Origin: a virus
Direction: 5' to 3' (one strand)
Length of the DNA: 49,329 nt
Virus record (IMG/VR): IMGVR_UViG_3300025122_005511
Span: 1 to 49,329 of that record
Positions within the stretch are counted from its first letter, which is position 1. The number at the start of each line of letters is the position of its first letter. The position numbers and the translations under genes were made by a program. The notes under the pieces were generated by a model, which ran no database searches, was not told the DNA's origin, and saw only the letters and a program-made list of their open reading frames with translations. Shown here piece by piece: positions 5,336-49,329 of this stretch.

Positions 5336-5336
5336 A

Positions 5337-6840: not shown

Positions 6841-6843
6841 ATC

Positions 6844-9793: not shown

Positions 9794-9810
9794 AAAGAGA
9801 GAGTATAAGA

Positions 9811-10827: not shown

Positions 10828-10829
10828 TT

Positions 10830-16973: not shown

Positions 16974-17012
16974 AAAAAACATGTTTTCAAATAATTATTG
17001 AGAGGGCGGAAG

Positions 17013-17396: not shown

Positions 17397-17414
17397 TTAT
17401 ACTGAGGTAGGTGC

Positions 17415-19205: not shown

Positions 19206-20752
19206 TGGGGTTTAAAAGATATACAGGTAGCGCCGACACTACTATTACAAATGCTTTTAAGGCAAGCCTGACGGCCAACAGCCGCGGCACTGGCTCTAAT
19301 ATGGGCTATGCAGATTCCATAGAAGTATTCTCTATATATGGACAAAACTCCGGCTCCTCACTCGGCAAGTCCCAGGAACTTTGTCGAGCTATGGTAAAGT
19401 TTCCTATTACTGCAATCAGCGCAGACAGAACCGCTGCAGCAATTCCAGCCAGCGGCAGTGTTAATTTTTTCCTTAAGTTAAGCAATGCAAAACATCCTTG
19501 GACTTTGCCACAAGATTTTACTTTGGTAGTCGCGTCCGTTTCTCGTTCGTGGGACGAAGGAACTGGCCTCGACATGGACGAGTATTCAGATTTGGGTAAA
19601 GCCAACTGGATGTCGGCTTCTACCACCACAGCATGGACAAATATCGGAGGAGATTTCCGGGATGACAACGAGGCTTCGGATGCACCGGTTTATCGTCAGA
19701 CTTTCCCGCTGGGCTATGAAGACCTAGAAATTAATATTACTCCGACCGTAGAGAGGTGGATGCAGACCTCAGGCACCGCGCTTCATCACCCCAATTATGG
19801 ATTAGGAATTTTCTTAACCTCAAGCCAGGAAGCCTATGCAGCAGCCGCGGCAGCGAACGGCGTGATAGAAAACACCGGCGGCGCCGAGATCTCTTATTAT
19901 ACAAAGAAGTTCTTCGCGCGCTCAAGTGAATATTTTTTTAAGCGCCCGTGGATTGAGGCACGATGGGACTCTCGGGTCGAAGATGATCGCGGCGGCTTTT
20001 ACTATAGTAGCTCAATGGCTCCAGCAACCGATAATTTAAATACTCTTTATCTATACAATTATGTCCGCGGCCAGCTTACGAACATCCCCGCTATTGGTAC
20101 CGGTCTGGTATATGTTTCTCTCTTTTCCGGAAATGCCGGCAACACGGCCCCATCTGGAATTCAGCTTTTGTCGGGCGGAGCGACCGTAGTAACTGGCGGT
20201 TATGTGAGCACCGGTATTTACTCAGCATCTATTTGTATGACCTCTTCTTCCGCCAATGGCGCGCCATCTAAGCTGTTCGATCTGTGGTGCTCGCTGCCGA
20301 CTGGCTCTACTCAATACAAGACTGGTTCTATAAGCACAAAAACTTTTCGAAATTTTCAGGGCGCGCCAACATTCGAGCGGCATACAGCAATACAGAATTT
20401 ACAAACCTCTTATAGAAGGAACCAAACTGTACGCTTTAGAACTTTTGTTAGAGATAAAAACTGGAGTCCAACGATTTACACGGTCTCTACAACTGTTAAT
20501 CCTACAGAGGTAATCGAGAGTGCGTCTTATAGGATTCTTAGGCTTGTTGATAACTATGAAGTTCTTCCCTATGGTACGGGAAGCGAGTACTCAACATACT
20601 TGTCTTATGATGTCAGCGGCAATTATTTTGACTTAAGTATGCTGGAATTAGAGGCTGGATATATGTATGGAATCAAATTATCTTACTATAATGGTAGTGT
20701 AGCAACTTGGGTGGAGCAACCAGAAACGTTCAAATTTAGGGTTGATGAATAA
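19205..20752 (+). CDS. Virion protein with DNRLRE-like beta domain
   Basis: A 515-residue protein. Residues ~1-235 resemble DNRLRE-type beta-sandwich domains: alternating strands, VASVSRSWDEGTGLDMDEYSDLG, and FPLGYEDLEINITPTVERWM, which matches the 'strand followed by WxxG' style of that family. The rest is Ser/Gly/Tyr-rich beta sequence with repeated short strands, ending VEQPETFKFRVDE. It sits directly after the gp6-like gene, where T4 has gp7 and gp8, so a wedge or fibre-attachment role is likely. AGAGGAAG near 19189 precedes the start. The domain call is by pattern only. Confidence 0.55.
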   Translation: MGFKRYTGSADTTITNAFKASLTANSRGTGSNMGYADSIEVFSIYGQNSGSSLGKSQELCRAMVKFPITAISADRTAAAIPASGSVNFFLKLSNAKHPWTLPQDFTLVVASVSRSWDEGTGLDMDEYSDLGKANWMSASTTTAWTNIGGDFRDDNEASDAPVYRQTFPLGYEDLEINITPTVERWMQTSGTALHHPNYGLGIFLTSSQEAYAAAAAANGVIENTGGAEISYYTKKFFARSSEYFFKRPWIEARWDSRVEDDRGGFYYSSSMAPATDNLNTLYLYNYVRGQLTNIPAIGTGLVYVSLFSGNAGNTAPSGIQLLSGGATVVTGGYVSTGIYSASICMTSSSANGAPSKLFDLWCSLPTGSTQYKTGSISTKTFRNFQGAPTFERHTAIQNLQTSYRRNQTVRFRTFVRDKNWSPTIYTVSTTVNPTEVIESASYRILRLVDNYEVLPYGTGSEYSTYLSYDVSGNYFDLSMLELEAGYMYGIKLSYYNGSVATWVEQPETFKFRVDE

Positions 20753-20759
20753 TTAGGAT

Positions 20760-23700
20760 ATGAGTTTTAAGCACCTTTTTGACAAAGCACAAACTCTTAA
20801 ATCGCTTTCCAACAAATCAGCTGATCAAATTGGATCTGCGATTGAGTCGGCGCAATATCAAAAAGAAGACATTATAAAAGAGAACAGGTTTATACCTGCT
20901 GTCAATTATGCAAGTGCTTCTAGCTTTGCCCGCTACGGGTCCGCAGAAAAATATTATGCTGAATCCATAGATCGAATTTGGAAGACATATCCCTATGATG
21001 GATCTCTGCGAGAGAGACTCCAGTGGGAAAATGAATCTACCGAAATTGATCTTTATCTTTATGACAACCTTTACCCGCGCAGTACCGGCTATATTCTTAT
21101 GTCGCCCGCCGGCTGGGGCACCCAAGCCTCCACAACAAATGGCTACGGACTCCCTAGCGATTTAGAATATATCTATTTGAAGGGCGGCCCACACCCAAAT
21201 CCAGATGGGATGTCTCCCACCTACTTACAGTTCACTGGGTCTAACTATTATGAGACTGGGTCCAATAGGGGCTCCAATCTTAAATATGATTTATCGGGGG
21301 ACGGCGTAACTTTAGAGTTCTGGCTCAAAAAGGATGCTTTTGACAATACTAAGACAGAAAAGGAAGTTATTTTCGATCTTTGGAATGGTAGCGACCGAGT
21401 TCAAGCTACTGCAGTCGATGCAATTGATACAACTGGTGTAGTTGCAGATGGTGGCGATTGTACGATTACGATTACGATTCCTGCAGCAAATGGCGGGGAT
21501 GCTACGGGCGGCGCTGGTGCAATTACAATACTTTTAGATGCCTCGGAAACCACTGGTACCCCCCCGGCCGCTAATCAGATTGGTATTGGCATCAACGGCG
21601 AATCAGATTCGAGTATTGCAACGTTGATCAAAAGAGCTATAAACAATACTTCTAATTCTCGTATAATCCCGGCGAGCGCTGGCTCAAGGGGTACGGCGGG
21701 TGTCTCAGGTATTACGGCAGCCGAAGGTTCAAGCAACACTCAACTTACACTTACTATGGACGCTGCTGGGGCTGATGGTAATATCGCCGGCGCTCTTGCA
21801 AACGTCACCGGCCCTACTATAGTTGATGTAACGGCTTTTACCGGTGGCGACGACCGCGATTTCGGGCGCCTATCGCTAGCGATGGATTCCTCCAACGATG
21901 GAGGGGCTGTCTTTACGGCCACTCTTGTGTCCGGATCTGACGGGGTAACGGAACAATCGATAGGAAGCGCCATTACTGTTGCAGATTCAGCATGGCATCA
22001 TTATGCCTTCTCCTTTAAAAATGCTTCCGCAGGTATCACAAGTCGCGTCTACGTTGATGGGGCGCTAAATCAAAATACTACTTTAGGCTCAGACGCATTA
22101 AGTGAAGTTACTGGCGCTCTCCAGGCTACCATTGGAGCACTCGCCACCACACTCGGCGGCGGCGCTCAATACGCAGGCAAACTTTCGGGCTCTCTAGACG
22201 AGTTTAGGTATTGGAAGACCCAACGCAGTTCTCAAGATGTTGGCCGTTTTTGGTTTACGCAAGTGGGGGGCGGCACCAACGACGATCCCATGCCGTTTAA
22301 GGACACTTCAGAGGTGGCCAACACTAAGTTGGGCGTCTACTATAAGTTCAATGAGGGCATAACTGGCACAGGTTCTGTCGACAGCACCGTTTTAGATTAT
22401 TCGGGCCGCGTGACCAACGGCGCTTGGACTGGATACACAACCGATTCGCGCAACACGGGCTCCGCCATTATTTCTTCTAGTGCAGCAACCAAAGAGTTTG
22501 AAGATCCGATTATCTATTCTTTTGATGCTGCTGTATCGACGCTGCGAGCTAACCTGATTCAGTCTGGATCCGACCATGATGCTACTAATGCGTCGATGAT
22601 CTATAGCTCAATACCGGCTTGGATTACAGAGGAAGATCAAGAAAGAGGGTCACAGCTTCAAAATCTTACCCAAATTATGGCGAGCTATTTTGATACTCTT
22701 CATTTGCAAGTTGAATCCCTCAATAAACTAAAGGATATCTCATACGTTAGTGGTTCTGATAAAGCTAACGTTTTTGCCGAACGAATGTTAATGTCCACGG
22801 GCCTTGTGACACCAGAGCTATTCGTTGACGCATCTATTATCGAGAAGCTTGCCGACAGAAGTGAAAAACTCGTCTTTGAGAAAAGCCTCACAGAAGTAAA
22901 GAACTTAATTTACAAGAACATTTATAATAATTTAACTTACATTTATAAATCTAAAGGCACCGAGAAGGCCTTTAGAAACCTTATTCGGTGTTTCGGCGTT
23001 GATGATGAGCTGATTAAAATTAATATGTATGCAAACAATATTGAGTTCGATTTTACAACAAATCGAACCAATCAGTCGTTTGGAAAGAAATTTGTTAATT
23101 TCAACAATTATACAAATATGGATGCAAATGTATATCAGATTCGTGACCCGGGGGATACGACTAATACTAGCGGCTTTATATCCGCCAGCACTGAGTTGAC
23201 TGGCGGCTTTGCTCTTACTCTTGAGGCCGAAGTTATATTCCCTGAAAAGTTTAATCAGAGTCATGACTTTTATCAAGATACAAACATTATTTCTTCTTCA
23301 TTATTTGGCGTGCATGCTACTAACGTACAGCCTTCTGATACGGCCGGCTCAGAAGCCGCACAGACTGACACTGCTTTTCCTACGGATGATGCTACCAATT
23401 TCCAAGTTTTTGCAGTCAGAGAAACCAGGGACTCATCAAATGTCGTTTTTATTCTAACCGGTTCGGCAGGAGGTTATCTCCCCAATCTTACGAGCTCTAT
23501 GTTTTATGACGTTTATAATAATTCAAAATGGAACTTTGCTGTTAAGATTAGCCCTGAAAACTATCCTTGGGTTGGGCAAGTGGAGAGCACCCCGAATGCA
23601 AACTACTCGGTGGAATTCCAGGGAGTTAATGTAGATGCCGGTATTGTTGTTAATAGCTTTAATGTAACGGGAACCGTGACTGCTCCGGGGACTGCCTTTC

Positions 23701-26700
23701 TTACCGGCTCTCGGCGTGTCTTTATGGGCGCGCACAGGACAAATATGACGGGTACTGTGCTTCAGAGAACCGATGTAAAAGGAGGCTCGTGCCGGCTTTG
23801 GCTCGACCGTCTGAGCACTCAAACCATTGAGGCGCATGCCTATGACCCCACCAATTATGGTCTCGCAGATACTGCTCTTTATGCCTTTCCTTTCCAGGCC
23901 TCCGCTAGTTTCGGCGATCTGCCGCGTATCAACACTTTAATTCTTAACTGGGATTTTAACCAAAACACAGGATCAGATGCTGACGGCGGTTTTAGAGTTG
24001 CTGATATTTCGTCTGGCTCGGCAACAATGGCTGCAGCCCGCAACGATTGGCTTGGGAATATCTTATATTACCAGCACCCGGGTTCAGGGTCTAGTTTTGC
24101 AGCTAGCACAACTGCAGTCACTGATAAGGATTATGTGGTTGCGTCAAAACAGAATCTACCGGAGACTCTGGAATCATCGGATATGATCACTGTGCTTTCA
24201 CAGCAGGATGATGTAGAGTTTACAAGAGACTCCCGACCCCAAAACTATTTCTTGGCGTTTGAGAAGAGTATGCAGCAGGCCATCTCTGACCAAATAATCA
24301 ACTACTTTGCTTCCTTGAGTGATTTAAATACTCTTATCGGCGCGCCAGTTAACAGATATCGCACAGAATATAAGGGGCTTAAGCATTTAAGACAGCGCTT
24401 CTTCGAAACAGTTTCTAATGACGAAATAGATTTTGAGAAGTTTTTTGAGTATTATAAATGGATCGACGGTGCCTTGAGTGTCCTCCTGGGACAACTTGCC
24501 CCCATATCTCTAGAATTCGATCCCAATGTTCGAACGCTAATTGAAAGTCATATTCTGGAGCGCAGCAAGTATCAGAATAAGTTTCCATTCCTGGCGAAGT
24601 CAGAACCTGACCTGTCCGGAACAATCGGAACCATAGCAACACCAATTGCTGTTAATTCTATTATCAATGATGCACAGGGAACAGGATTTGAATCTGCTCA
24701 GGCTCCAACCAATCGTGTTACCGGCATGCCCAATACCTCAGTGCTCAATAGCTGGAAATATGATCATGCCCCGGTACCCACCGCGTCTTGGGTCGATGGC
24801 GCCCGACCTCAACAGGATACAGGATCGACATGGTGGCAGAACCGCGCCGAGCGTGGCGGCCTTTCGGATCTGCAAAACTTAAATGCTACTGGGGTAATGC
24901 CGGCTAATGCGCTAGCCGATAGACAAATCCTGCTCAACGCTATTAAAGCTTCCAATAACCGCACCCTCGGCCGTCCCTACCGCTTCAGCGGCGGAGGCTC
25001 TGTGGTTCTTGGTGGCGTCGCTCGGCATCCAAGCCAGCGCAAGGGTGTCGTGTATGAAGCGACGGCCCCTGCGGGGCCGACTGTGGGCCCTGGTGGCGCA
25101 GCTACTGCAGTCGACGCAATTGATACAACTGGTGTAGTTGCAGATGGCGGCGATTGTACGATTACGATTACGATTCCTGCAGCAAATGGCGGGGATACTA
25201 CGGGCGGCGCTGGCGCAATCACAATACTTTTAGATGCTTCAGAAACCACTGGTACCCCAGCCGCAGCAGATCAAATTGGTATTGGTATTCTTGGTGAAAT
25301 TGATTCGAGTATTGCAACCTTGATCAAAAGAGCTATAAATAATACTTCTAATTCTCGTATAATCCCGGCGAGTGCTGGTTCAAGAGGCACCGCGGGTGTC
25401 TCAGGTATTACGGCAACCGAAGGCTCAAGTAACACTCAACTTACACTTACTATGGACACTGCTGGGGTTATTGGTAATGTCGCCGCCGCTCTTGCAAACG
25501 TCACCGGCCCTACTATAGTTGATGTAACGGATTTTACGGGGGGCGGCAATCCCGGCGTACCAAGCGACATCATGGTGGCCAAGTCGGCAGATGTGGAAAG
25601 CTTAATTAGCTCTTCCGATGTATACTTCCCATCTCAGAAGGTTCGTTATGGATTTGGAATGGGGGTTCAGTCGTCAAGCTATAAAACTTATGAAATAGAT
25701 GCTGACGGCGCTACGGTTGCTCCCTTCAGCTTGTATAGTTCTTCCATCAGTGATACGCTGTCGAGCGAGATGTCGAACTTCACCGGCAGCACAATCATTA
25801 CCAATATGCATGCCGATCTTACGTCAGATCAGACAGATATCCCGATGCAGGGGCCCTTCACTGAGAAGTTTGTTGGAGGGCGCCAGCATCGCCATATTGA
25901 ACTGAACCAGTCGCGGTCATCTGATGATAGTCTTTCAATGGCCAATAACTTCAATGGTCTGGACACGCGAGCAGATCGCCCTGAAGGCTTCCGCATCCAG
26001 ATGGGGTATGAGTTCACGGGGTCGAACACCGGAAGCCCCTGGAAGGCATCCTCGGGGCGCCTGCAGGTTGTTTCACCACAGTACCCTGAGTTGGATACTG
26101 CGCCAGGCACCACCAATCTTTTCGAGAGGCCAAAGGCAAATATTCCGAGAGAAGAATACGCCAAGCGTCCTGTAAACATCAAGAATATCCTGATGACGAC
26201 TGCTTCGTTGAGTCAATCATTGTCCGGGCCGCTGGAGCACAATAGAATTGGTAACTACTCGAAGAATTATGAGGTTATTCAGACCTCCGGCCGCACACAG
26301 AATGATCCATTTTTCCAAAAGCAGTCGTTTACGTTTGCTCCGGACCCCGAGACTTTGGCTACGAGAGGGCGTTTCCCACTAGAGAACCCGGCCCATGGTG
26401 CGGTCCAGTTTGACGGGACGAGCAATTATTGGCTCAGCAGCGGCAACAAGTTTTCTGATGCCACCGCTATGGATGCTGTTATGGGTGGTGCAGGCAACGC
26501 AGCAGTCCCCTATAGCGTTTCAATTTGGGTATACATACAAGATGGCGGAGATACGGACCCAGTTATATGGTCCAAGGACCAGAGCAGCGGCGAAGCTGAG
26601 GTATATTGGGATACAAGCCATACAAGGATCTACTTCGAGGTCAATAAGGACTCCATTATTCGGGCCTATAGTAGTAGTATAGTATATTCCGAGAGATGGA

Positions 26701-29700
26701 ATCATATAGTGGTTACGTTTGATGGGGGTTCCGACAATGGAGGCACAAAAACTCCGGCTATCTGGGTGAATGGCCTGGATTTGACTGCCGCTACAACTAC
26801 ATCCGGTACTCCCGCAGCAATGACGGAGGGTCTCGTCTTGGGCGGCGACAACAGCCGCTCCGGGAATAGTTTCAAGGGCTATATGTGCGATTTCGCCATA
26901 TGGGATAAAGTGCTGAGCGCGACGGAGATACTAGAGATTTATGGTGCTAATGGCCAAACGGGACAAGGGAAGGGACGTCGACTTGATCTAAATTCCGTAT
27001 CTTGTGCTAATAATTTAGTAATTTGGACGCCGTTGGGTAGTACCGGATGGAATACTTTTGGAGCACCTCCCGACACCGTGAACCTGTACTCTCATGGTGG
27101 CAAGTACAGCGTCGGAGGAGCATACCAAACATGGTCGCCAGGGGTCAACGGCACTCTCGTATCGTCTTCTTTGCACTGGATTGGAGGCAGAACACAAAAC
27201 CTTAGCGGCAATTTAGATTACGCCATCCCGGCCCGTACTGGCTCCGATTCTAACCAGACCATTATTGTTAATCGCTTTAGCGCACCCGGCGGCTATGATG
27301 TGTCGTCGCAGGGGTATATGGACCCAGCACATGAAGAACACTCAGTCTATAACGCGATGCCATACCGCAATCAATCGGTTATCAACTATGGTGTTTCTGG
27401 CAGTGCATCAGCACCGCCGTCTGGGTCGACAATTATGGTGCAGGATCAGCTTCTTAAGCCAAGAGGTCTGGATCAGCTATCTACCATTCATACAGCCCAT
27501 TTCGGAGCAGATGCTGCATTTGGAGCGATAACATTGGCCCAAGCTGCAGCAGGAGGCGAGGGCACTGTTACAAGGCCCGCATTCTATAAGACCCAAAGAA
27601 ATGCGCGCAAGGAGTTACAGATAGGTGTAGAGAGCTCTTGCCTGCAGGTAAGCAGCTCAAGCCCTGTAATTAATAACGCGAAGGTAGCTGCCACCAAATG
27701 GGATTCACTAATTGGTGATGACGTACCTGGCGCCGGCGCGCGCACCTTTTCAGTGAGCATGTGGGTGAGCTTGAATTCAGATGCAAATAGTCCGTTGTTT
27801 TCCGCCGGCGGCTCTGGCGCCGCCACGGCTCCGAAGTATGTTTACTACCTCGCCTCAGATAATAAGTTTTATTTTGAAATCGCCGGCGGCGTCGCAAACG
27901 GTATTGTGAAGTCCTCCGCCATAACCACACCCTCAGCTGGTACTGTAGTTTGGAATCATATAGTGGTGACATTTACTGGCGGCACCACAACGAACTCAAC
28001 GACCATGAAGATATATATTAATGGTGTAGACGACACGAATGCAGATACCACCGGAAACGGAATCACCGCTATGGTCACGGGTGATGTTTATTTCGGTTAC
28101 GAGCCGAATAGCGACGTCTCGGCGCCGGCTATGTTTAGTAATTGTGCGATATGGAATACAGCTCTTACGTCGACAGAAGTAAGAAGGATATATAATTCGG
28201 GTCAGCTTTATGACTTAAGCAAACTTAAAGCTGATAATTTAATTTCATGGATCCGTCTTTCCGCACCGGAAGGTCAAGTCCTCGAAAACACACTAGCCAC
28301 CAACGACCCCGCAGACATTCTAGGTGTTAAAAATATAGCACCGAAGCGTGTCAGCTTCTTTGGCTCTGCTACAGAGGCTGATTGGACAATTCTTACGAAG
28401 GGAAGCCTGAACGGCCGATATACAGCTTTTGTGCCCCCTTCGCCAGACGACTGGCCCGTTGTGACCGGCTCTGTGTATGATAATGCATTTGAACAGCATG
28501 GCGTTCCTAACGCAGACAGAAATTATGCGTGGATTACTGCTTCTTTGGATGCAGATGTTCCCTTTTATGGTTTTGATGAGGAAATCGTTGCACCAACTCT
28601 TCCGATTACGCCCTACTACACGGGCAACAAGTCTGTAGGCTTCCTCGACCTTTCTGCGGAAAGCGGCCTCCAGCGCCTTGATGATCTCCAGACCGCAGAG
28701 TATTGGGATAACTTGATTGGTGGTGGTTACAACGTCGCGCAGGAAAAGATTCCTCTCAAATCTTTTAGCGTATCAATGTGGATATACCCAACGGCCATTT
28801 CCGCAAATTATCCTTGCCTATTCATGTTCGGTGCCAACAGTCGCTTTATGACGCTCGACACCACCGCCGCCGGATTTCCAACCATTCTGCGCGCGTTCGT
28901 CGGCGCCGGCGGCGCCACTGCGGAGACCGGGTTCCTCGGTCAGCAACGAAATACGGCCGCAATTATTAACCAGAACGAATGGGTTCATGTAGCAATGACT
29001 TATACGGGATCCACCCCTCACCAACCATGGGTGAATAGCAACCCTCCGAACATCTTTGTTAATGGCGTCGAGAACTGGACCGGCGTCGACCTCGGATCTC
29101 GCCCAAAGGGCATCCTCTCAGGCTCCTTATCTATTGGTTCGGCCGGCAAGGACATGGCGACCCACGTCACCGTCGCACAGGGCCAATTTGAGGGCTATAT
29201 GTGTGATTTCGCCGTATGGTCTGAGAGGCTCACCGCCGACGAGATTACTAAGATTTACAATGATGGATATCGATACAATCTGAAAGATCCGAACCGGCCG
29301 GCCGGCCTAGTATCCTGGTGGCCGATGGGATCAGATTCCGACGACAGCCTAGGCGCCCCGATCACCGTCGACGGCGTTCTCTATACGCCGGCCGGCGCAG
29401 TCTTCGACGAACTAAATCGTGCGCCCCTCATCCCCCCAGCCGTCGGTTCGAACCCGACAGCTTCCGCCGAGGGAGTGGCCCCCAGCGCAAGCTTGCCCCT
29501 GTTCGACTTCTTGAAGAACACTGTGCCCAAGGTTTCTGAGATTTCTGCTTACACAACACCGGGCCTCGGAAGCCCTTCGGGTGCATACGTCCCGGGTCTC
29601 TACCCTTTCCAGGGTCGAGGCTCGGGGACTTATAGTGCATTCGGGTCTGCCGTAACCTCCCCGAATCAGAATTATGAGCCGCCATATTCGACTTTGGTCG

Positions 29701-32700
29701 AGAGCGCAAGCATTAGCTTTACAGGAATGGCTTACAACGATTATGCGATTAGGTATGCTAACTTGGATACACACGTTCTTGAGGCACCCGTTTTCCGACC
29801 AAACACTAAGTCTTTGAAGGTATCGGGGGGGCTTTCAATTACCCTTGCTGCCGCTCTCTTGGATATCGAAGGCCCGAAGTGGATGGCCGGCAACGCCGCA
29901 TCCTGGACCACCATCGGCGCCCCCGGACAGATCCCGGCCCAACCTGGAAGCGCCTCTTCGGCCTTTTCAATAGCAACGTGGATTTACATAGATTATAGCG
30001 GGAGCTACATTCAAGCCCTGAACACCGCGTCCACCGCGCCCGCCGTTCCCTCTAATCCGGGCATAACACCCGGCGCGGGCTTCCTCGACACCATCGACGG
30101 GACCTACACGGACGCCGGTCTGATGATGGTGGCGGGCTGGAATTACGCGAAGAGGAGTAGCATTGCATTACCAATTCAGGCGCTTTGGTTGATTCCTAGG
30201 TACACCGCCGGTACTAATAACTCTTCCTCCGCACCCACGTGGATGCCTTTGTTTACTGTCTCCGGTGGCGCCGATGGCTACGCTGCGGCCGGCTATGACA
30301 CGGGGATATGGGGGTCCAGGAATGGAAACATTTTTGTAACCGGCTCCGACTGGAATTGGACCACTGGCGCCGGCGGAGCTTTGGAAGCAAATAAATGGTA
30401 CCACATAGTTTGTACTTACGACGGCACCGATCCAGCGTGTGTTGCCAACACTGATGCGCGCCTTGGTCTAAATGCACAGAAGATCTATATAAATGGCCGA
30501 TCTACAGACCTCCGCGATGGCGAGGGCGGCGGCGCCGTTGCTTCTGGTACGTTGATGCCGGGTGGATACAGCCCCGGAAGCAATCCGCAAGGTTTGGAGG
30601 ACCCCGGTTATATCGCAGCCGCATTGTCTATAGGAAACGCCGCGGTCAATAGTAACTATTTCGGATATCCATTTCGCGGCAATATCAACGACATCCAGAT
30701 ATATAATGAGGCGCTTTCTGGGCCGCAAGTTAAGGAATTGTTTAATCGTCGCGGCATTAATCATTTCGACACAACTTACAAAAAGAATTTAATAGCATGG
30801 TATAAAATGGGCGACACGGACGGTGATTCCAACGTGTTTATTCAGGATGTTGTATCGGGCATAAACGCTGTTAACGTCGGACTTACTGGGTCGGCGGCCA
30901 TATTCTCTCAATCGGCCATAGTTACAGAGGCCCCCGCTACTGGTTCCTCGGTGTCGGGCACAAACGAGTATCGGTATATATCGGGCACCTTCATGGCAAA
31001 TTCTTTTGTTACATTGAATCATACTCTGCTGAATTTGAATGGCCCTTACCAAAATCCGAGTTGGAAACAGATGCGCTCTGGCCAACATCGAGTTGCTAGG
31101 AGCCTGAAAGAAGCTAATCGAATTTCTATCGCAGAGCCGCCTCCAATGGTTGCCGAAGGCGTAGCCGGCGGAACAAATGCTGTTAATTTCCTCCGCGGCA
31201 AGTCTTCAATATCGTTTACAGATTATGTGGAACAACCAATTTCCAGCAGGTTTAAGCCCTTCTTGGCTGCTTTTGAAGATAACTCTACCCTTGCTGTGCC
31301 TGGAAATAATACGGCCGTTCGGGTATCTTATGGAAATAATATAGATTATTTCTCCAACCCGGGCCTCAATAACAAGCTTAATTTGCAGGCTAACACGCGC
31401 CAAAACCAGGCCTATAACGAAGTCACTGAATATATTGCTAAAACTGGTGACGCTCCGATGACGATGTCAGTTTATGCCTCCTATGGAGAACAAATCTATC
31501 CTCGAGCAGTTAATGTATATCAGCCTAGAGTAAGAACTAGGGAGCAGTATAAAATTGATAATATCTGGAATGATGTGCGGCGACTGAGAGCATACGATCA
31601 GGTTAATTCTCAAGGATGGCCCGTATATTCCTATCCCCTCACAGCTTCAGTGCTCTTGGACAGTCCAGGCACCAACGCCTATAGCTACTTCGCGCAGCAA
31701 TGGGTTGGAGATGTTAGCGCTCAATCTGCATGGCCGCTGGATGCTCCAATAAAATATACGGAAATAACTTCTAGTGGCGGCTTTGTTACTGGGTCAAACG
31801 AATATACTGAAGGGGGTCGAACCATTTATCATACGGCCTCCGTTTCTTCACTAGTCTCGGGCGCCCTCCCCGCCGCGGCAACGGGCTCTATGCCCTATGC
31901 GTTATTTAGCGGCGTTAACATGCTCGATGATGTTAACATCAGATCTTTGCTTACTAATCTAATTTATCCCACTAGTGGGGCCGGCGCTGGCGAACTTCAA
32001 AATTGCTATAGTTATTACAGAAATGCCCGATGGACAGCTGCACTCGGGTCCTCGGACGAGGTTTCTATTGCCCCTAGTCAGTCAGTCCATCCTGCGGCAA
32101 GTTACATTAGACCATTGCCGGAGGTGCCTGCTCGAATTCAAAACTATACGGCAGGCGATTACCTGGTACCCTGTGGGGAGACTCTTATTGGTTTTCATCC
32201 TTGGATTGCTCCATATCAAGAGAAGTTGAGTCCTTATCAGCCATATGCTGATTATGCTGAGAATTTACGCTTAGCAGGGAAAGATTGTTCAATTATTCCT
32301 GAGTTTAGAATAAGCGAAGTATTAGAAGAATACCTGGGCAACGAGAGTACCGAACCTGCTTCTGATGGCTTTTTAGCAAAAGTGAGCTCTATGTTTAGTT
32401 TGACCGGCTCTTCGTTGGCCCCGGAGACCAAAGACTTTTATAATGTTTATTCAACTAGCGATTTCTTAGAGCTATTCCGCATTGTAGACGAAGATCTTGA
32501 TAGCGCCCGTTCCGCTAGCGAACAGAGTATCAAGAAACACGGCGCGACTCTTCAGGCTACTGCGTTTACATCCTTTCTGCCTTATAAGGGATTCTATCCG
32601 GCCGAGAGGACAGTCAAGTTGGCATCCTATTTCTCTCAATCGATGGGCTCCTTCTTGCCCGGCACGAGAAGTTATGATGGATCGGTAAGAGATGGCGTCA

Positions 32701-35324
32701 ACTACCCGGCCGCAACGGCTAACCAGACCCTTTCCCGAATTTTGTTAGAGCCTCTTTTCGCTCCAGGAATTTTATTTAATACGATTAAATCGGGAATCGC
32801 GGTAAGTAATTTCGTTGTTAGGAATACAGCTTCAAATCCGGGCGACGCCAAGAATCCACCTAGCATCATCGACGCCCAATTAAAAGTTCAGGGTCTATTG
32901 GGTGTTGCCGCCAAGAAACCTGGTTGGAGCGTATCGGCCTGTACTACACTTTCGGGTAGTATCGGTGGCCACGAAGGGTTGAAAGATAATTATTATGAAT
33001 ATAATTTTAATTCTTCGGCTTCCTATCAGTCGGCTTCAATCAATTCATGCAGTTTTGGTGCCTTAAATATTGGTCATAGCGCATCAGCCGGGATCACGTC
33101 ATTTAATGTGATACAAGTTGCCGCAGGCGCAGAGGGCACAGTATGGGGTTCGATAGCCACGGCCGTCCAGTCAAATCGTTACGGCTTTTTCTTGGAGAAG
33201 ATTCCCTTTGAGGCCATCAGGCGCCCTTCGGAATATCTTGCCTGGACCGCATTGGCCACGGGAACGATCGGCCATACGCCTGATCCCATATGGGGCGGCG
33301 GATATCAAACGGGCTCTCTGACTTCCGACAGTCAAATGCTACAACCTAATGGTGTTTTAACCAATACTGCTTCGTCTGAAGAACCTGAGTCTGCCGGCGG
33401 CATCGGCGCAGGGTGGCTGTATGATACGGGGTGCACAAATAGCTCTAGTATTGCTGCTTCTGTCTCGCGGGTCACAGGCCAGTACAGCGCCAGTGCCGGG
33501 GACTCACGCTATAACGCCTCCGGCAGCACACTCATTGGCTATGGTGTTCTCAGTGATCAGCGCCAGAACAAGATACGCTGGAATGGCGCCATGTCGTCGC
33601 AGTTGTATGAATTGGCCATTGATAATTTCTTGTGCGAGACGGTTAACTTCTTCCAGGATCGTTTAACAAGTTATGTTTCAAAGGAAGAAACAGCATTCTT
33701 GCCTGTTGAAAAGAACGCATATTATGGAATGCGTGTTTCACTGTACAGATCCCAGGATGATAACGGGGACCCGAATTTTGGAATGTACAGCAGGGCCACT
33801 GCGTTTGGAAGCGCTATCACAGCGACAGGTAGTAATGGCTCCTGCGTTACTATGGCTCACCTTACGCCTCCTTATTATAATGGAGGAGCCACAGCTGACA
33901 TTGTTTTCCAAGCTCCCTATAATGATCGCCCCACTTTGCAAGATATTATTTCGATAGCAAAAACAGCTTATAATCGCAAAGTTGAGAATAATGTGACGTT
34001 AGATGTCCACAACAGCGGTACTATGATCGGGCTTGTGACAAGTTCGATTCTCCTTCAAGATTACCACTATAATCAAATGCAGGTAAGCGCAAGCGTTAAT
34101 ATATTTGATAAGATTTTAGCAATTCCCGAAGGAACCACAGAACAGAAGGTTCAGTGGCTTGTTCAGTCTAAATTCGAAACTCCAGTATTTGATTTTTATG
34201 ATACTCCGTCTTTACCTCATCCAACAGCATCACTGTATTTTAACTCCTCGAGCATCCCCGGAAACGGCGGCGCCGGGGTGACACCCGTAGAAGCTGCGAT
34301 TAATGTTACTTCTTCCACGGCGCCCTTCCAAATTCGAGGAATGTGGCATCAATATGGACGTCTTCCCGAACCATCAAAGGGAGTCTTTTTGGGTCTTACT
34401 GATTTACCGCACAAGTATAGTTCTTCTCATTACGGAGATATTGATGTTCTGTCATTACGGAAGATCGTGGGGTTTGATAATGCAGGCGATAAGAAAATTG
34501 GTACCCTTGCAGAATCTACTGTGGTCCGCGAGGCAGTTGTGGTTGTGCCCTTTAACGTTCGCCAAGGCACCCGTGAGTTTAAGAAAATAGCTAGTTCCTT
34601 GGAGATGCTTGAAAAATCCGGAGCATTGTCGGCGAAGAACGCCGCGATGATCGCCAAGTCGGCCGCGGCCGGCAACGCGGTTCCGGAATCTAATGTTTGG
34701 GAAGAGCGCCTAAATCGGTATAATAGGCAAACAGAGCTATTAAATAGATATATTTTCCCTCCAGTATTTGATTGGCTCGTAAATCGATCGACGCTGCCCG
34801 TATTTTTTGATGCTTTTGAATTTGAAACAACATTTAGTCGCAAAGATTTACAAAACATGTGGCAAAATCTCCCGCCCGAGAGCAACCAAAAGATGGTAAA
34901 ACAGTCGGATACCATTAAAATTTCTAAGTTTTGGTCGCGCCAACTTTTCTCGGGAGCGGGATTTAATAGCAACACACAGTGGTTGGTTTTTAAGGTTAAG
35001 CAGCGCGCCGCCAAAGACTACAGCATCTTTTCCAAGCAAGGTCTTACAAAGGATATTCCTATTGTCCCGGCTTCAATTGACTCCCCTTACAGTTTCAACT
35101 GGCCGTATGATTATTTCTCTCTCGTAGAACTACTTAAAATTGATGAGAATGTGGAATATATGTCTAAGAATTCGGGGGCCTCGCGATGGGAAGACCCTGC
35201 GGTTCCTCCAACGCTCGGCGCAGCTGCAGGGACGGACCCAGATGGGAACTCTACGTTTGTGGGAGACTATACGGACGCAGAAGCAACAGCGATTCTTAAC
35301 GACTTAAACAGGAACAATAGCTGA
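20760..35324 (+). CDS. Giant LamG-domain virion protein (4854 residues), probable tail fibre or adhesin
   Basis: A single open frame of 14.6 kb. Five laminin-G/concanavalin-like domains can be read: residues ~153-493 (VTLEFWLKK ... GSLDEFRYW), ~1879-2062 (YSVSIWVYI ... GYMCDFAIW), ~2294-2481 (FSVSMWVSL ... FSNCAIW), ~2625-2841 (FSVSMWIYP ... GYMCDFAVW) and ~3018-3347 (FSIATWIYI ... GNINDIQIY). Each has the WNHIVVTF-type strand and an xVNGV loop. The first is split by a ~147-residue insert whose near copy recurs at ~1447-1595. N-terminal (1-120) and C-terminal parts (FSRKDLQNMWQNLPPE) have no LamG character and probably anchor it to the tail. LamG domains commonly bind glycans, so host-surface recognition is the inferred role. 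Confidence 0.85.
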   Translation: MSFKHLFDKAQTLKSLSNKSADQIGSAIESAQYQKEDIIKENRFIPAVNYASASSFARYGSAEKYYAESIDRIWKTYPYDGSLRERLQWENESTEIDLYLYDNLYPRSTGYILMSPAGWGTQASTTNGYGLPSDLEYIYLKGGPHPNPDGMSPTYLQFTGSNYYETGSNRGSNLKYDLSGDGVTLEFWLKKDAFDNTKTEKEVIFDLWNGSDRVQATAVDAIDTTGVVADGGDCTITITIPAANGGDATGGAGAITILLDASETTGTPPAANQIGIGINGESDSSIATLIKRAINNTSNSRIIPASAGSRGTAGVSGITAAEGSSNTQLTLTMDAAGADGNIAGALANVTGPTIVDVTAFTGGDDRDFGRLSLAMDSSNDGGAVFTATLVSGSDGVTEQSIGSAITVADSAWHHYAFSFKNASAGITSRVYVDGALNQNTTLGSDALSEVTGALQATIGALATTLGGGAQYAGKLSGSLDEFRYWKTQRSSQDVGRFWFTQVGGGTNDDPMPFKDTSEVANTKLGVYYKFNEGITGTGSVDSTVLDYSGRVTNGAWTGYTTDSRNTGSAIISSSAATKEFEDPIIYSFDAAVSTLRANLIQSGSDHDATNASMIYSSIPAWITEEDQERGSQLQNLTQIMASYFDTLHLQVESLNKLKDISYVSGSDKANVFAERMLMSTGLVTPELFVDASIIEKLADRSEKLVFEKSLTEVKNLIYKNIYNNLTYIYKSKGTEKAFRNLIRCFGVDDELIKINMYANNIEFDFTTNRTNQSFGKKFVNFNNYTNMDANVYQIRDPGDTTNTSGFISASTELTGGFALTLEAEVIFPEKFNQSHDFYQDTNIISSSLFGVHATNVQPSDTAGSEAAQTDTAFPTDDATNFQVFAVRETRDSSNVVFILTGSAGGYLPNLTSSMFYDVYNNSKWNFAVKISPENYPWVGQVESTPNANYSVEFQGVNVDAGIVVNSFNVTGTVTAPGTAFLTGSRRVFMGAHRTNMTGTVLQRTDVKGGSCRLWLDRLSTQTIEAHAYDPTNYGLADTALYAFPFQASASFGDLPRINTLILNWDFNQNTGSDADGGFRVADISSGSATMAAARNDWLGNILYYQHPGSGSSFAASTTAVTDKDYVVASKQNLPETLESSDMITVLSQQDDVEFTRDSRPQNYFLAFEKSMQQAISDQIINYFASLSDLNTLIGAPVNRYRTEYKGLKHLRQRFFETVSNDEIDFEKFFEYYKWIDGALSVLLGQLAPISLEFDPNVRTLIESHILERSKYQNKFPFLAKSEPDLSGTIGTIATPIAVNSIINDAQGTGFESAQAPTNRVTGMPNTSVLNSWKYDHAPVPTASWVDGARPQQDTGSTWWQNRAERGGLSDLQNLNATGVMPANALADRQILLNAIKASNNRTLGRPYRFSGGGSVVLGGVARHPSQRKGVVYEATAPAGPTVGPGGAATAVDAIDTTGVVADGGDCTITITIPAANGGDTTGGAGAITILLDASETTGTPAAADQIGIGILGEIDSSIATLIKRAINNTSNSRIIPASAGSRGTAGVSGITATEGSSNTQLTLTMDTAGVIGNVAAALANVTGPTIVDVTDFTGGGNPGVPSDIMVAKSADVESLISSSDVYFPSQKVRYGFGMGVQSSSYKTYEIDADGATVAPFSLYSSSISDTLSSEMSNFTGSTIITNMHADLTSDQTDIPMQGPFTEKFVGGRQHRHIELNQSRSSDDSLSMANNFNGLDTRADRPEGFRIQMGYEFTGSNTGSPWKASSGRLQVVSPQYPELDTAPGTTNLFERPKANIPREEYAKRPVNIKNILMTTASLSQSLSGPLEHNRIGNYSKNYEVIQTSGRTQNDPFFQKQSFTFAPDPETLATRGRFPLENPAHGAVQFDGTSNYWLSSGNKFSDATAMDAVMGGAGNAAVPYSVSIWVYIQDGGDTDPVIWSKDQSSGEAEVYWDTSHTRIYFEVNKDSIIRAYSSSIVYSERWNHIVVTFDGGSDNGGTKTPAIWVNGLDLTAATTTSGTPAAMTEGLVLGGDNSRSGNSFKGYMCDFAIWDKVLSATEILEIYGANGQTGQGKGRRLDLNSVSCANNLVIWTPLGSTGWNTFGAPPDTVNLYSHGGKYSVGGAYQTWSPGVNGTLVSSSLHWIGGRTQNLSGNLDYAIPARTGSDSNQTIIVNRFSAPGGYDVSSQGYMDPAHEEHSVYNAMPYRNQSVINYGVSGSASAPPSGSTIMVQDQLLKPRGLDQLSTIHTAHFGADAAFGAITLAQAAAGGEGTVTRPAFYKTQRNARKELQIGVESSCLQVSSSSPVINNAKVAATKWDSLIGDDVPGAGARTFSVSMWVSLNSDANSPLFSAGGSGAATAPKYVYYLASDNKFYFEIAGGVANGIVKSSAITTPSAGTVVWNHIVVTFTGGTTTNSTTMKIYINGVDDTNADTTGNGITAMVTGDVYFGYEPNSDVSAPAMFSNCAIWNTALTSTEVRRIYNSGQLYDLSKLKADNLISWIRLSAPEGQVLENTLATNDPADILGVKNIAPKRVSFFGSATEADWTILTKGSLNGRYTAFVPPSPDDWPVVTGSVYDNAFEQHGVPNADRNYAWITASLDADVPFYGFDEEIVAPTLPITPYYTGNKSVGFLDLSAESGLQRLDDLQTAEYWDNLIGGGYNVAQEKIPLKSFSVSMWIYPTAISANYPCLFMFGANSRFMTLDTTAAGFPTILRAFVGAGGATAETGFLGQQRNTAAIINQNEWVHVAMTYTGSTPHQPWVNSNPPNIFVNGVENWTGVDLGSRPKGILSGSLSIGSAGKDMATHVTVAQGQFEGYMCDFAVWSERLTADEITKIYNDGYRYNLKDPNRPAGLVSWWPMGSDSDDSLGAPITVDGVLYTPAGAVFDELNRAPLIPPAVGSNPTASAEGVAPSASLPLFDFLKNTVPKVSEISAYTTPGLGSPSGAYVPGLYPFQGRGSGTYSAFGSAVTSPNQNYEPPYSTLVESASISFTGMAYNDYAIRYANLDTHVLEAPVFRPNTKSLKVSGGLSITLAAALLDIEGPKWMAGNAASWTTIGAPGQIPAQPGSASSAFSIATWIYIDYSGSYIQALNTASTAPAVPSNPGITPGAGFLDTIDGTYTDAGLMMVAGWNYAKRSSIALPIQALWLIPRYTAGTNNSSSAPTWMPLFTVSGGADGYAAAGYDTGIWGSRNGNIFVTGSDWNWTTGAGGALEANKWYHIVCTYDGTDPACVANTDARLGLNAQKIYINGRSTDLRDGEGGGAVASGTLMPGGYSPGSNPQGLEDPGYIAAALSIGNAAVNSNYFGYPFRGNINDIQIYNEALSGPQVKELFNRRGINHFDTTYKKNLIAWYKMGDTDGDSNVFIQDVVSGINAVNVGLTGSAAIFSQSAIVTEAPATGSSVSGTNEYRYISGTFMANSFVTLNHTLLNLNGPYQNPSWKQMRSGQHRVARSLKEANRISIAEPPPMVAEGVAGGTNAVNFLRGKSSISFTDYVEQPISSRFKPFLAAFEDNSTLAVPGNNTAVRVSYGNNIDYFSNPGLNNKLNLQANTRQNQAYNEVTEYIAKTGDAPMTMSVYASYGEQIYPRAVNVYQPRVRTREQYKIDNIWNDVRRLRAYDQVNSQGWPVYSYPLTASVLLDSPGTNAYSYFAQQWVGDVSAQSAWPLDAPIKYTEITSSGGFVTGSNEYTEGGRTIYHTASVSSLVSGALPAAATGSMPYALFSGVNMLDDVNIRSLLTNLIYPTSGAGAGELQNCYSYYRNARWTAALGSSDEVSIAPSQSVHPAASYIRPLPEVPARIQNYTAGDYLVPCGETLIGFHPWIAPYQEKLSPYQPYADYAENLRLAGKDCSIIPEFRISEVLEEYLGNESTEPASDGFLAKVSSMFSLTGSSLAPETKDFYNVYSTSDFLELFRIVDEDLDSARSASEQSIKKHGATLQATAFTSFLPYKGFYPAERTVKLASYFSQSMGSFLPGTRSYDGSVRDGVNYPAATANQTLSRILLEPLFAPGILFNTIKSGIAVSNFVVRNTASNPGDAKNPPSIIDAQLKVQGLLGVAAKKPGWSVSACTTLSGSIGGHEGLKDNYYEYNFNSSASYQSASINSCSFGALNIGHSASAGITSFNVIQVAAGAEGTVWGSIATAVQSNRYGFFLEKIPFEAIRRPSEYLAWTALATGTIGHTPDPIWGGGYQTGSLTSDSQMLQPNGVLTNTASSEEPESAGGIGAGWLYDTGCTNSSSIAASVSRVTGQYSASAGDSRYNASGSTLIGYGVLSDQRQNKIRWNGAMSSQLYELAIDNFLCETVNFFQDRLTSYVSKEETAFLPVEKNAYYGMRVSLYRSQDDNGDPNFGMYSRATAFGSAITATGSNGSCVTMAHLTPPYYNGGATADIVFQAPYNDRPTLQDIISIAKTAYNRKVENNVTLDVHNSGTMIGLVTSSILLQDYHYNQMQVSASVNIFDKILAIPEGTTEQKVQWLVQSKFETPVFDFYDTPSLPHPTASLYFNSSSIPGNGGAGVTPVEAAINVTSSTAPFQIRGMWHQYGRLPEPSKGVFLGLTDLPHKYSSSHYGDIDVLSLRKIVGFDNAGDKKIGTLAESTVVREAVVVVPFNVRQGTREFKKIASSLEMLEKSGALSAKNAAMIAKSAAAGNAVPESNVWEERLNRYNRQTELLNRYIFPPVFDWLVNRSTLPVFFDAFEFETTFSRKDLQNMWQNLPPESNQKMVKQSDTIKISKFWSRQLFSGAGFNSNTQWLVFKVKQRAAKDYSIFSKQGLTKDIPIVPASIDSPYSFNWPYDYFSLVELLKIDENVEYMSKNSGASRWEDPAVPPTLGAAAGTDPDGNSTFVGDYTDAEATAILNDLNRNNS
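21405..21847 (+). repeat. Direct repeat copy 1, 443 bp, inside LamG domain 1
   Basis: This stretch recurs collinearly, without indels, 3696 bases downstream at 25101-25543 with roughly nine in ten bases identical by eye. It encodes a ~147-residue beta-rich domain starting AVDAIDTTGVVADGG and ending VDVTAFTGG. Here it interrupts LamG domain 1 between DLWNGSDRV and FGRLSLAMD, strands that would otherwise be continuous. Confidence 0.9.
25101..25543 (+). repeat. Direct repeat copy 2, 443 bp
   Basis: Second copy of the repeat at 21405-21847, in the same reading frame of the same gene. It follows a Gly/Pro-rich stretch (GPTVGPGG) and is followed by GNPGVPSDIM, so this copy appears as a free-standing domain between linkers. 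Many differences from copy 1 are at third codon positions, as expected if the encoded domain is kept functional after duplication. Confidence 0.9.
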
Positions 35325-47050: not shown

Positions 47051-47584
47051 ATGATTTTAGGACTCGACATATCCACCAGCATAACTGGCTATACTATATT
47101 AGATAGCGCCGGCAATATTGTGGTCTGCGATCACATCGATCTGCGAAAAGAAAAGAACTTTTTTCAGAAGGCCGTTGAGATGGAAGTTGTCCTCAACTCC
47201 GTCAGATCTAAATATTTTATAGAACATGTTTATATTGAACAATCACTTCAGTCTTTTAGGTCTGGATTCTCTTCAGCACAGACTCTCTCTTTGTTGTCTA
47301 AAATTAATGGCATTGTGTCGTGGATATGCTATAATATTTTTGGAGCCGAGCCAAAGTACTTAGCCGCCACATCGGCCCGCAAGCTTTGCGGCATTAAAGT
47401 TCCGAAGGGACAGAAGGCAAAAGCAGTCGCACTGCAGTTTGTTGTTGACAACGTCGATACTTTTGAGGTACAATATACAAGGCATGGAAATCCAAAGGCT
47501 GGTTATGCTGACCGGTCGGATAGCTACGTAATTGCAAAGGCCGGCTGGGTACGTGAAAGAGAAGAAGCTCAAAATACTGACTAA
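47051..47584 (+). CDS. RuvC-like Holliday-junction resolvase / RNase H-fold nuclease
   Basis: A 177-residue protein from ATG 47051. MILGLDISTSITGYTIL is the first strand of the RuvC fold with Asp6; YIEQSL gives Glu63; and ADRSDSYVIAKAG gives Asp154 and Asp157, with the three-residue spacing of RuvC Asp138/Asp141. This is a complete four-acid metal site. Such phage enzymes resolve branched DNA during replication and packaging. In-frame starts at GTG 47006 and ATG 47012 would add up to 15 residues with no family match, so I prefer 47051 although no ribosome-binding site precedes it. The 3' end overlaps the primase gene. Confidence 0.8.
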   Translation: MILGLDISTSITGYTILDSAGNIVVCDHIDLRKEKNFFQKAVEMEVVLNSVRSKYFIEHVYIEQSLQSFRSGFSSAQTLSLLSKINGIVSWICYNIFGAEPKYLAATSARKLCGIKVPKGQKAKAVALQFVVDNVDTFEVQYTRHGNPKAGYADRSDSYVIAKAGWVREREEAQNTD

Positions 47585-48488
47585 CGTGTTGGGGTCCTTT
47601 TATCGGACCAACAACGAGTTTCTTTTTAAGTGTCCTTACTGCGATCATCATAAACGCAAGTTCTCCGTAAATCTCGACAAGGGCTATTACAAATGCTGGG
47701 TATGCGATACACGCGGTAAGAACCTGTATCGAGTTGTTCGCCGTTTTGGTGCGAACCACGACAAATCGCAGTGGAGAGATCTCACCTCCGAGATTGATTT
47801 TGATCAACTCGAAGATTTGTTTGCCGAGAAAATAGAAGAAAAACAAATACTTGAGATGCCTGAAGGGTTTGTATCCTTAGCGAACAGGGACGTTCCGCCT
47901 ACTGGATTTGCCGCGCGCAACTATCTCCGAAAGAGAGGAATCAGTAAGCAAGATATTATTTGGTGGAAGATGGGTTATTGTAGCCGCGGCGAATACGAGG
48001 GCAGAATCATTATTCCATCGTTTGATGATGAAGGGGATCTGAGCTACTTTGTTTCCCGATCTTATGACAGAGCTTACTATCCTAAATACAAAAACCCTCC
48101 CGCGAGTAAAAACATTATCTTCAATGACTTGTTCGTAGATTGGAGTTCAGACATCATCTTAGTAGAGGGTGTCTTCGATGCAATTGTCGCAGGGCGCAAC
48201 TCGGTTCCTCTGCTTGGTTCCACTTTAAATCAGAATTCTATTTTGCTTCGAAAAATCGTGAAAGAAGATGCGGGCGTCTATATCGCTTTGGATCCGGACG
48301 CAAAGAAAAAAGAACTTGAGGTTATCAAAACTTTATTGGATTTTGATATCGAAGTTTGGAAGGTTGATCTTGGAGATAATCAGGATGTGGGGTCTATGGG
48401 CAAAGATCATTTTCAGGAATGCATGGAAAATGCGACCCTTATCACTCCCGACAACTATTTATTGTTGACGCTTGTTTCGTCAATATAA
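47532..48488 (+). CDS. DNA primase, DnaG/T4 gp61-like
   Basis: A 318-residue protein with an N-terminal zinc ribbon (CPYC and CWVC, about 25 residues apart, with KFSVNLDKGYYKCWVC between) and a TOPRIM domain: DIILVEGVFDAIVA carries the catalytic Glu and YIALDPDAKKK the DxD metal-binding pair. This is the gp61-type primase arrangement; no helicase domain is attached. The frame opens at TTG 47532 inside the resolvase gene; GTG 47553 (start MKEKKLKILTN) is an equally possible start and neither has a clear ribosome-binding site. It would make RNA primers for lagging-strand synthesis with a helicase encoded elsewhere. Confidence 0.85.
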   Translation: MQRPAGYVKEKKLKILTNVLGSFYRTNNEFLFKCPYCDHHKRKFSVNLDKGYYKCWVCDTRGKNLYRVVRRFGANHDKSQWRDLTSEIDFDQLEDLFAEKIEEKQILEMPEGFVSLANRDVPPTGFAARNYLRKRGISKQDIIWWKMGYCSRGEYEGRIIIPSFDDEGDLSYFVSRSYDRAYYPKYKNPPASKNIIFNDLFVDWSSDIILVEGVFDAIVAGRNSVPLLGSTLNQNSILLRKIVKEDAGVYIALDPDAKKKELEVIKTLLDFDIEVWKVDLGDNQDVGSMGKDHFQECMENATLITPDNYLLLTLVSSI

Positions 48489-48502
48489 AGGAATACATAA
48501 AA

Positions 48503-48661
48503 TGAAACAATTATTATTAGACAGTTTAGCCTTAAGTAAGGATTTGTTATTGCTCCGCGCTCCCCGAGCCCTGTATGTGGTTTTGGCGGCAAACAGCGCC
48601 GGCGCACTTGTTGTTGGTCTTGTTGTCGGACACTGCTCCCTGCTTTAGGAGAGACAAATGA
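48503..48661 (+). CDS. Small open frame of uncertain reading, possibly frameshifted
   Basis: ATG 48503 follows AAAGGA (48488-48493) by nine bases, a good start context, and begins MKQLLLDSLALSK. In that frame it continues to a TGA overlapping the next gene's ATG, but the middle (CMWFWRQTAPAH) does not look like a natural protein. The neighbouring frame from 48541 to a TAG at 48646-48648 encodes a convincing membrane helix (VVLAANSAGALVVGLVVG). A one-base indel near 48540 would join the two into a ~48-residue membrane protein. Small size and doubtful frame keep confidence low. Confidence 0.35.
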
Positions 48662-48702
48662 AAATTACCAAACGAAGACTCAAAGAGATTATCAGGGAAG
48701 AG
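48658..48702 (+). repeat. 45-bp leader-coding repeat, copy 1
   Basis: The first 45 bases of this gene and of the gene starting at 49167 differ at four positions by eye. They encode MKITKRRLKEIIREE here and MKITKQRLKDIIKEE there. Downstream of this the two genes show no obvious similarity. Confidence 0.85.
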
Positions 48703-49167
48703 GTCAGCCAGGCTCAGCAACGCCGCGACGCGTTGGTTTCTCCAGACTCCGGCGGCTTGTCCTGGCGCGACGATGATGAGGATTCAAAGCTTAATGAGAC
48801 GCTCCCGGACGCCGGAGGCGTGTGGGTAATTGAGAAGACTGGGGTTGGCGCCGACGAAAGGTATTTGCAACGCGGGAATCAATGGGGGCCTTTGTGGGAT
48901 CCCGACATTCCGGACACCATTGGCGCCCTCGTATTTGGGGACGAGCCCGAGGCTGCAAGTTATCTGAGGCAGAACGACATTTCCACCGATAATCGTCCCT
49001 ATCCATCGTTTTACAGCGATGATGATTTAGAGGCAATGGAAATGCAAGCAGAAGAGCCCCCGCCGGACCCCCATGATGAAGAAACTTTACGTCTCTCGGG
49101 AGATCCTTCGCAACGAGAAATCGATCGACTTGCTTATGGTGCCCGCACGGGCCGCTGGAGAAAGTAA
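48658..49167 (+). CDS. Protein with N-terminal MKIT leader, possible packaged internal protein
   Basis: A 169-residue protein. The first 15 residues (MKITKRRLKEIIREE) form a basic amphipathic helix shared with the next gene; the rest is acidic and loop-rich (DEDSKLNETLPDAGGVWVIEK, EMQAEEPPPDPHDEE). AGGAGAG lies just upstream of the ATG. IxE motifs in the leader (IRE) fit the cleavage rule of T4-type prohead proteases, which trim capsid-targeting leaders of internal proteins. The body has no recognised domain. An internal-head-protein role is inference. Confidence 0.65.
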   Translation: MKITKRRLKEIIREEVSQAQQRRDALVSPDSGGLSWRDDDEDSKLNETLPDAGGVWVIEKTGVGADERYLQRGNQWGPLWDPDIPDTIGALVFGDEPEAASYLRQNDISTDNRPYPSFYSDDDLEAMEMQAEEPPPDPHDEETLRLSGDPSQREIDRLAYGARTGRWRK

Positions 49168-49211
49168 TGAAAATTACCAAACAAAGACTTAAAGACATTA
49201 TCAAGGAAGAG
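49167..49211 (+). repeat. 45-bp leader-coding repeat, copy 2
   Basis: Second copy of the leader sequence at 48658-48702, placed exactly at the start codon of the next gene and in the same frame. The similarity ends near codon 15. Confidence 0.85.
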
Positions 49212-49329
49212 CTTCAATATGTTCTGTCTGAAAACTCAGGAATTAGATGGTCGAAGTCCAACCAAGCGCCCAGCGGAATGCGAGGCGATGTTTATAACGC
49301 GGAGGACGAACAACTTATCCAGCAAGCCC
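49167..49329 (+). CDS. Second MKIT-leader protein, partial (runs off window)
   Basis: Begins at ATG 49167, sharing a TAATG junction with the previous stop and preceded by GGAG at 49157-49160. The 54 visible residues start MKITKQRLKDIIKEELQYVL, the same leader as the upstream gene, then diverge into a polar sequence (SENSGIRWSKSNQAPSG). The frame is still open at the window edge. Two consecutive genes with the same leader but different bodies indicate a signal or tag, not a shared enzyme domain. Confidence 0.75.
   Translation, partial: MKITKQRLKDIIKEELQYVLSENSGIRWSKSNQAPSGMRGDVYNAEDEQLIQQA

Follow-up and report, generated by a model that had tools for sequence, protein, structure and literature searches.

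A recurrent N-terminal leader on sequence-unrelated proteins of T4-like phages is probably a capsid-targeting propeptide

We analyzed a 49,329-base viral record (hereafter, the window: the whole stretch of DNA under analysis), which is a 49-kb fragment of a myovirus with the T4-like baseplate genes gp25 and gp6. At the 3' end of its + strand lie two consecutive open reading frames, one of 169 amino acids (48658-49167, N-terminus MKITKRRLKEIIREEVSQ...) and one of which 54 amino acids are visible before the window ends (49167 to the 3' window end, N-terminus MKITKQRLKDIIKEELQY...). Their proteins start alike (MKITKRRLKEIIREE and MKITKQRLKDIIKEE, respectively), and we refer to them as leader genes 1 and 2 and to the common N-terminal peptide as leader A. 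The features of the locus are listed below, with a slash marking predicted cuts.

47532-48488, + strand: DnaG-like primase (Pfam DNAG_N and Zn_ribbon_DnaG), which by synteny bounds the leader-gene array on the left, a border conserved among relatives
48502-48648, + strand: hydrophobic peptide of 48 aa between the primase and the leader genes, conserved in near relatives (46 aa)
48648-48657, + strand: ribosome-binding site GGAGAGACAA, called on its sequence, preceding gene 1
48658-49167, + strand: leader gene 1, with leader MKITKRRLKEIIRE (residues 1-14), an acidic body and the C-terminal module REIDRLAYGARTGRWRK
48658-48699, + strand: leader A of gene 1, predicted cut after E14 (IIRE/E), placed from the MCP site and a leader-swap junction
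49167-49329, + strand: leader gene 2, ended by the window edge, with leader MKITKQRLKDIIKE and 40 body residues
49167-49208, + strand: leader A of gene 2, predicted cut after E14 (IIKE/E)

The start of gene 2 overlaps the stop of gene 1 (TAATG). At their N-termini the two proteins are identical at 12 of 15 residues and diverge afterwards, which bears out the claim of a first-pass annotation that two adjacent proteins have a leader in common. Its description of them as otherwise unrelated held in part: the bodies do diverge, with protein 2 judged on 40 residues, but protein 1 is no orphan, as most of it can be aligned with three leader proteins from other phages (L116, L064 and L094; distant homologs found by local comparison). 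A full search of the viral collection returned no close homologs of protein 1. A six-frame scan of the 49,329 bases for the leader gave two strict or loose matches, both in these genes. AlphaFold predicted a helix at residues 5-27 of protein 1 that spans the leader (pLDDT about 75), with the remainder mostly of low confidence and a mean pLDDT of 55. The C-terminal module REIDRLAYGARTGRWRK is common to leader proteins with differing bodies (window 49090-49166, L122:15990-16104 and L116 near 790-870), and another such module, KKRYGDDAESVMYATATKIAKDKK, is found in L020, L026, L049 and L085.

Elsewhere in the window, a single 4854-codon open reading frame (20760-35324) lies amid baseplate and tail genes, and an aminotransferase, four nucleotide-sugar epimerase-like genes and a nucleotidyltransferase are clustered at 522-6628, a possible case of surface sugar modification. 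Neither a prohead protease nor recognized capsid genes were detected in the window fragment. We gathered relatives by a tail protein of the window and tested 22 large ones, all of them uncultured contigs; in that tail protein, genome G001 (193.8 kb) is 96% identical to the window. Gene order in relatives runs from the primase through the leader genes to gp17, gp20, gp21, a core gene, a gp22-like gene and gp23, and near relatives carry further leader genes at the same site, as had been anticipated for the region beyond the window. The T4-type prohead protease expected in such a genome was likewise found, with Peptidase_S77 present in 22/22 large relatives and Gp23 in 21/22. Among 17 further contigs picked by the leader, 11 had the protease and the other 6 were also without Gp23; two of these six have the portal gene 2 kb from the contig end, so truncation explains the absence of the protease in those two and is the likely cause in the others.

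Leader A proved to be a short N-terminal peptide common to proteins of unrelated body. In the broader locus set, which took in more loci and required a ribosome-binding site upstream, 274 distinct leader proteins fell into 188 unrelated body clusters, and among the matches listed from a scan with a degenerate leader DNA pattern, 119 non-redundant leader proteins fell into 78. The pattern occurred in at least 120 stretches among public viral contigs, and in 11.3 million prokaryote contigs it occurred in 2, both from marine metagenome-assembled genomes and possibly binned phage contigs. In an alignment of 130 leader proteins the consensus was confined to columns 1-16; information content was 4.3 bits at E14/E15 (a value fixed by the search pattern itself), 2.6 bits at residue 16 and <1 bit from residue 18, and conservation includes E15 and L16, two residues beyond the predicted cut. 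With a leader profile, six relatives obtained almost complete yielded 22 starts scoring ≥20 bits and three codon-shuffled versions of the same sequence yielded none, so the leader is not a product of chance. Most of the listed profile starts have a recognizable ribosome-binding site upstream, and the T4 late-promoter motif TATAAATA was not found upstream of leader genes. Other deposited phages yielded a single weak match to leader A, in an uncultured 484-kb phage record, and no mention of the leader strings was found in the open-access literature searched. One 237-aa leader protein (L215:1991-2701, or G003 96991-97701) harbors another complete leader A internally, beginning near residue 117 and with a possible start of its own at 2339, an arrangement that resembles two cargoes fused into one precursor.

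Within the leader, codons vary synonymously (all three Ile codons and several Leu and Thr codons are used) but encode fixed residues, which places selection at the level of the peptide. We therefore rejected the idea that the repeat is a DNA element, such as a recombination site or translation enhancer, translated by chance. Adjacent copies that are alike in DNA and cargo genes shuffled beside the repeat would suit such an element, but the free synonymous variation argues against it, as does homologous cargo that can bear a different leader sequence, leaving it with a negligible probability.

The leader ends in II[RK]E, which fits both the end of the MCP propeptide (LL[RK]E in 21/21 relatives, at the alignment position of the T4 gp23 cut FLTE/A) and the spacing of T4 cuts, and so forms a predicted cleavage site. 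The protease itself carries L[LI][RK]E near residue 8 in most genomes, and the conserved core gene after it mostly has LI[KR]E at residues 13-16; T4 gp21 loses nine residues ending LLIE. A spacing of phi-x-x-phi-phi-x-E is common to gp24 (INELLRE-10), IPII/III (YQEFIAE-10), gp23 (FGSFLTE-65) and leader A (LKEIIRE-14). In T4, experimentally known cuts fall after residue 65 in gp23 and after residue 10 in gp24 (PMC9958956), and the CTS of IPIII comprises 10 residues, in which targeting was mapped to residues 4 and 7 and processing to residues 8 and 10 (PMC9026906). L8, I11, I12 and E14 of leader A equal in spacing CTS positions 4, 7 and 8, which are hydrophobic or aromatic, and the Glu at CTS position 10. 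In cargo bodies, [LI]xE occurs at 0.98 of the shuffle expectation versus 1.18-1.24 in other genes (P about 0.005), and two control motifs are not avoided; this modest, post hoc signal suggests that mature bodies are exposed to the protease and withstand it.

We next considered where leader genes lie. In loci picked by the leader only, 153/213 leader genes were ≤8 kb from, and co-oriented with, a head gene or primase/tail markers, compared with about 18% for background genes, counted relative to head genes and primase (the nominal P is tiny; the phages are related, the genes clustered and the marker sets slightly different). Across six whole relatives, 10/20 were near markers (P 0.001), with about half away from the head block. 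Leader genes concentrate immediately behind the primase, where an array can hold as many as five, just ahead of gp17, in the interval from gp20 to gp21, and immediately behind gp21. Even phages that are nearly identical (93-96% identity in the tail protein) differ in the array behind the primase. G001 and L116 both share with the window the C-terminal module of protein 1 and the start of the gene that follows, but G001 has another body in front of the module, so bodies appear to be exchanged by recombination. The array would thus appear to be a fast-changing cargo cassette, with bodies exchanged behind constant leaders.

Recognizable domains in leader A cargo are the J domain (DnaJ), which begins at residue 18, right behind the leader, along with pentapeptide repeats, a 2H-phosphodiesterase-like domain and a peptidoglycan-binding domain. 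In contrast to the basic T4 IPs, most bodies are acidic (median -6 per 100 aa), and six relatives gave no tblastn match to T4 ipI, ipII or ipIII, with Pfam assigning other domains. Acidic bodies are also a trait of gp67 and gp22, and the gp20-gp21 interval and the position just downstream of gp21, which hold several leader genes, are near the T4 locations of gp67, gp68 and gp22; in G014, the gp21-adjacent protein has a Glu-rich stretch. The leader proteins could accordingly be internal prohead-core (scaffold) proteins like these three, held in the core by the leader, then degraded and lost before DNA packaging and not injected. We consider this unlikely, though worth weighing: the bodies avoid the [LI]xE cut motif rather than being rich in it, leader-gene content varies among near-identical phages, unlike that of essential core genes, and the cargo that can be recognized is of DnaJ, pentapeptide-repeat and 2H-phosphodiesterase-like type.

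An unbiased comparison of N-termini within each genome recovered leader A together with a second leader, B (MKLLFENWRKYLNE; ENWRKFLNE). Applied to internal segments, the comparison gave no matches in five of six genomes and seven in G020; applied to T4 60-109 kb, it returned the IPII/IPIII pair, a known CTS; and in the cultured relative immuto it found no repeated leader. Leader B has the spacing W-x-x-F-[LI]-x-E, which is that of T4. Its core, W[RK]x[FYWH][LIVM], falls within the first 16 residues of 33 genes in six genomes versus about 1 expected, and the form M..ENW[RK]x[FY][LIV]xE occurs on 31 body clusters, with kinase-like and 5'-nucleotidase-like proteins among them. Domains in its cargo are protein kinase-like (a label read by eye for one cargo) and LRV repeats; this eye-read cargo and the 2H-like cargo of leader A had no matches among solved structures. 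A 22-residue query with leader B found no match in deposited phages. Leader B is nearer than leader A to T4 YQEFIAE, both being too short for homology statistics, and a profile of leader A, itself short for such statistics, had no match in T4 60-109 kb. Two homologous large leader B proteins (770 and 840 aa) end in a C-terminal copy of the motif (WRKFLNG and WKQFLRG). Leader B loci are as follows.

L220 (G011), 9894-19506: leader B locus
L238 (G009), 2366-10781: leader B locus
L207, L214, L217, L236, L248 and L252: further leader B loci

The leaders also replace one another. Leaders A and B are found on adjoining genes, for example at 19 kb in G011 and, at the site matching that of the window, in G001 and G002. 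One cargo carries leader A in L009, L116 and L118; in L127 it carries leader B, and both leaders meet it at the same residue (IIKEE/MDAMRG and FINEE/EDAMRG, the slash here marking the junction). Further homologous cargoes have either leader A or a third leader, or either leader B or a shorter one, and a 5'-nucleotidase-like protein has leader B in two phages, another N-terminus of equal geometry in immuto and none in G011. A different role for the peptide, as a docking or dimerization helix outside the capsid (for example, binding a phage regulator or the membrane) with a coincidental LxE ending, would accommodate the conservation that runs past E14 to L16 and the leader genes outside the head block. 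It is nonetheless improbable, as the ending equals the MCP cut in 21/21 genomes, the spacing equals known T4 cuts, the leader is swapped with a T4-CTS-like leader at the cut and leader genes cluster in the head block.

Together, the protease in relatives, the head-block enrichment, the MCP-like [LI][LI][RK]E ending and the swaps at the predicted cut support the capsid-targeting reading of the first-pass annotation, and we conclude from these sequence comparisons that the leader is very probably a T4 CTS-like propeptide for capsid targeting and, within that type, a new and strongly diversified form. The basic amphipathic leader helix, with L8, I11 and I12 on one face, would attach the newly made protein to the prohead core; Peptidase_S77, the T4-type prohead protease, would then cut after E14 (II[RK]E/) and the peptide would leave, while the mature cargo would remain in the head alongside the DNA and, by analogy with T4 IPI and Alt, enter the next host cell at infection. 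Core docking, actual cleavage, virion retention and injection are steps that we infer. A role of the injected cargo as anti-defence or take-over effectors is plausible by analogy, IPI and Alt being the T4 precedent (PMC9958956).

Several known systems share parts of this arrangement. Like the leaders of T4 IPI-IPIII, leader A is a short N-terminal sequence ending phi-x-x-phi-phi-x-E on small dissimilar proteins, occurs with a T4-type protease and bears cargo that varies between phages. In contrast to the T4 CTS, it is longer (predicted cut after 14 residues rather than 10), differs in sequence (MKITxxRLKxIIKE versus MKTYQEFIAE), is basic, and is found on about 188 sequence-unrelated bodies in this sample, often arrayed, with acidic rather than basic bodies. 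Closest in sequence is the gp21-removed propeptide of T4 gp24, MAKINELLRE, with equal spacing (INELLRE-10 versus LKEIIRE-14) and a loss of 10 residues (PMC9958956); gp24, however, is a shell protein, whereas the leader proteins are small and without shell-protein similarity. In phage P1, an N-terminal signal of DarB brings the protein and a reporter into the capsid (PMC9024508), as is proposed here for leader A; unlike the present proteins, Dar proteins are without a common leader, and the P1 protease is compared with HK97 gp4 rather than T4 gp21 (PMC9024508). Ejection proteins of phiKZ and SPN3US have N-terminal propeptides cut after Glu by a gp21-like protease, and the SPN3US paralogs gp53 and gp54 have an identical 15-residue N-terminus (PMC5694885), but several of these propeptides exceed 100 aa, the motif in SPN3US is A-x-E and the cargo set is limited.

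Flavobacterium phage vB_FspM_immuto (L282, 11856-12455 and head block) is a possible laboratory system for testing leaders: it has a T4-type protease, a nucleotidase gene beginning with MKKVMGNLADLLLE and further genes beginning with MADNFNLRSFLTE or MENFDLKKFLVE. No dedicated paper on its virion proteomics was found in the open-access literature searched.

T4 capsid targeting is a known kind of system; new, as judged against the open-access literature searched, are the sequences and interchangeability of the leaders, the wide range of cargo types and the cassette. On balance, we favor the view that a marine T4-like clade runs an open cargo system, in which interchangeable tags (A, MKITxxRLKxIIKE; B, ENWRKFLNE; and shorter ones) and a fast-recombining cassette behind the primase would serve hundreds of unrelated cargo families, among them kinase-like, J-domain, pentapeptide and 2H-phosphodiesterase-like proteins. 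To our knowledge, only a few internal proteins are known in T4, and we know of no account of the proteins that enter the cell with the DNA for most marine phages. If the capsid-targeting reading is true, the tag would allow injected effectors to be listed straight from metagenomes: any gene beginning with it would be a candidate for an injected protein, found by sequence search, and in this sample it marks about 190 mostly anonymous protein types. Interchangeable leaders with a single-residue junction would also be natural parts for studying how proteins are loaded into phage heads.
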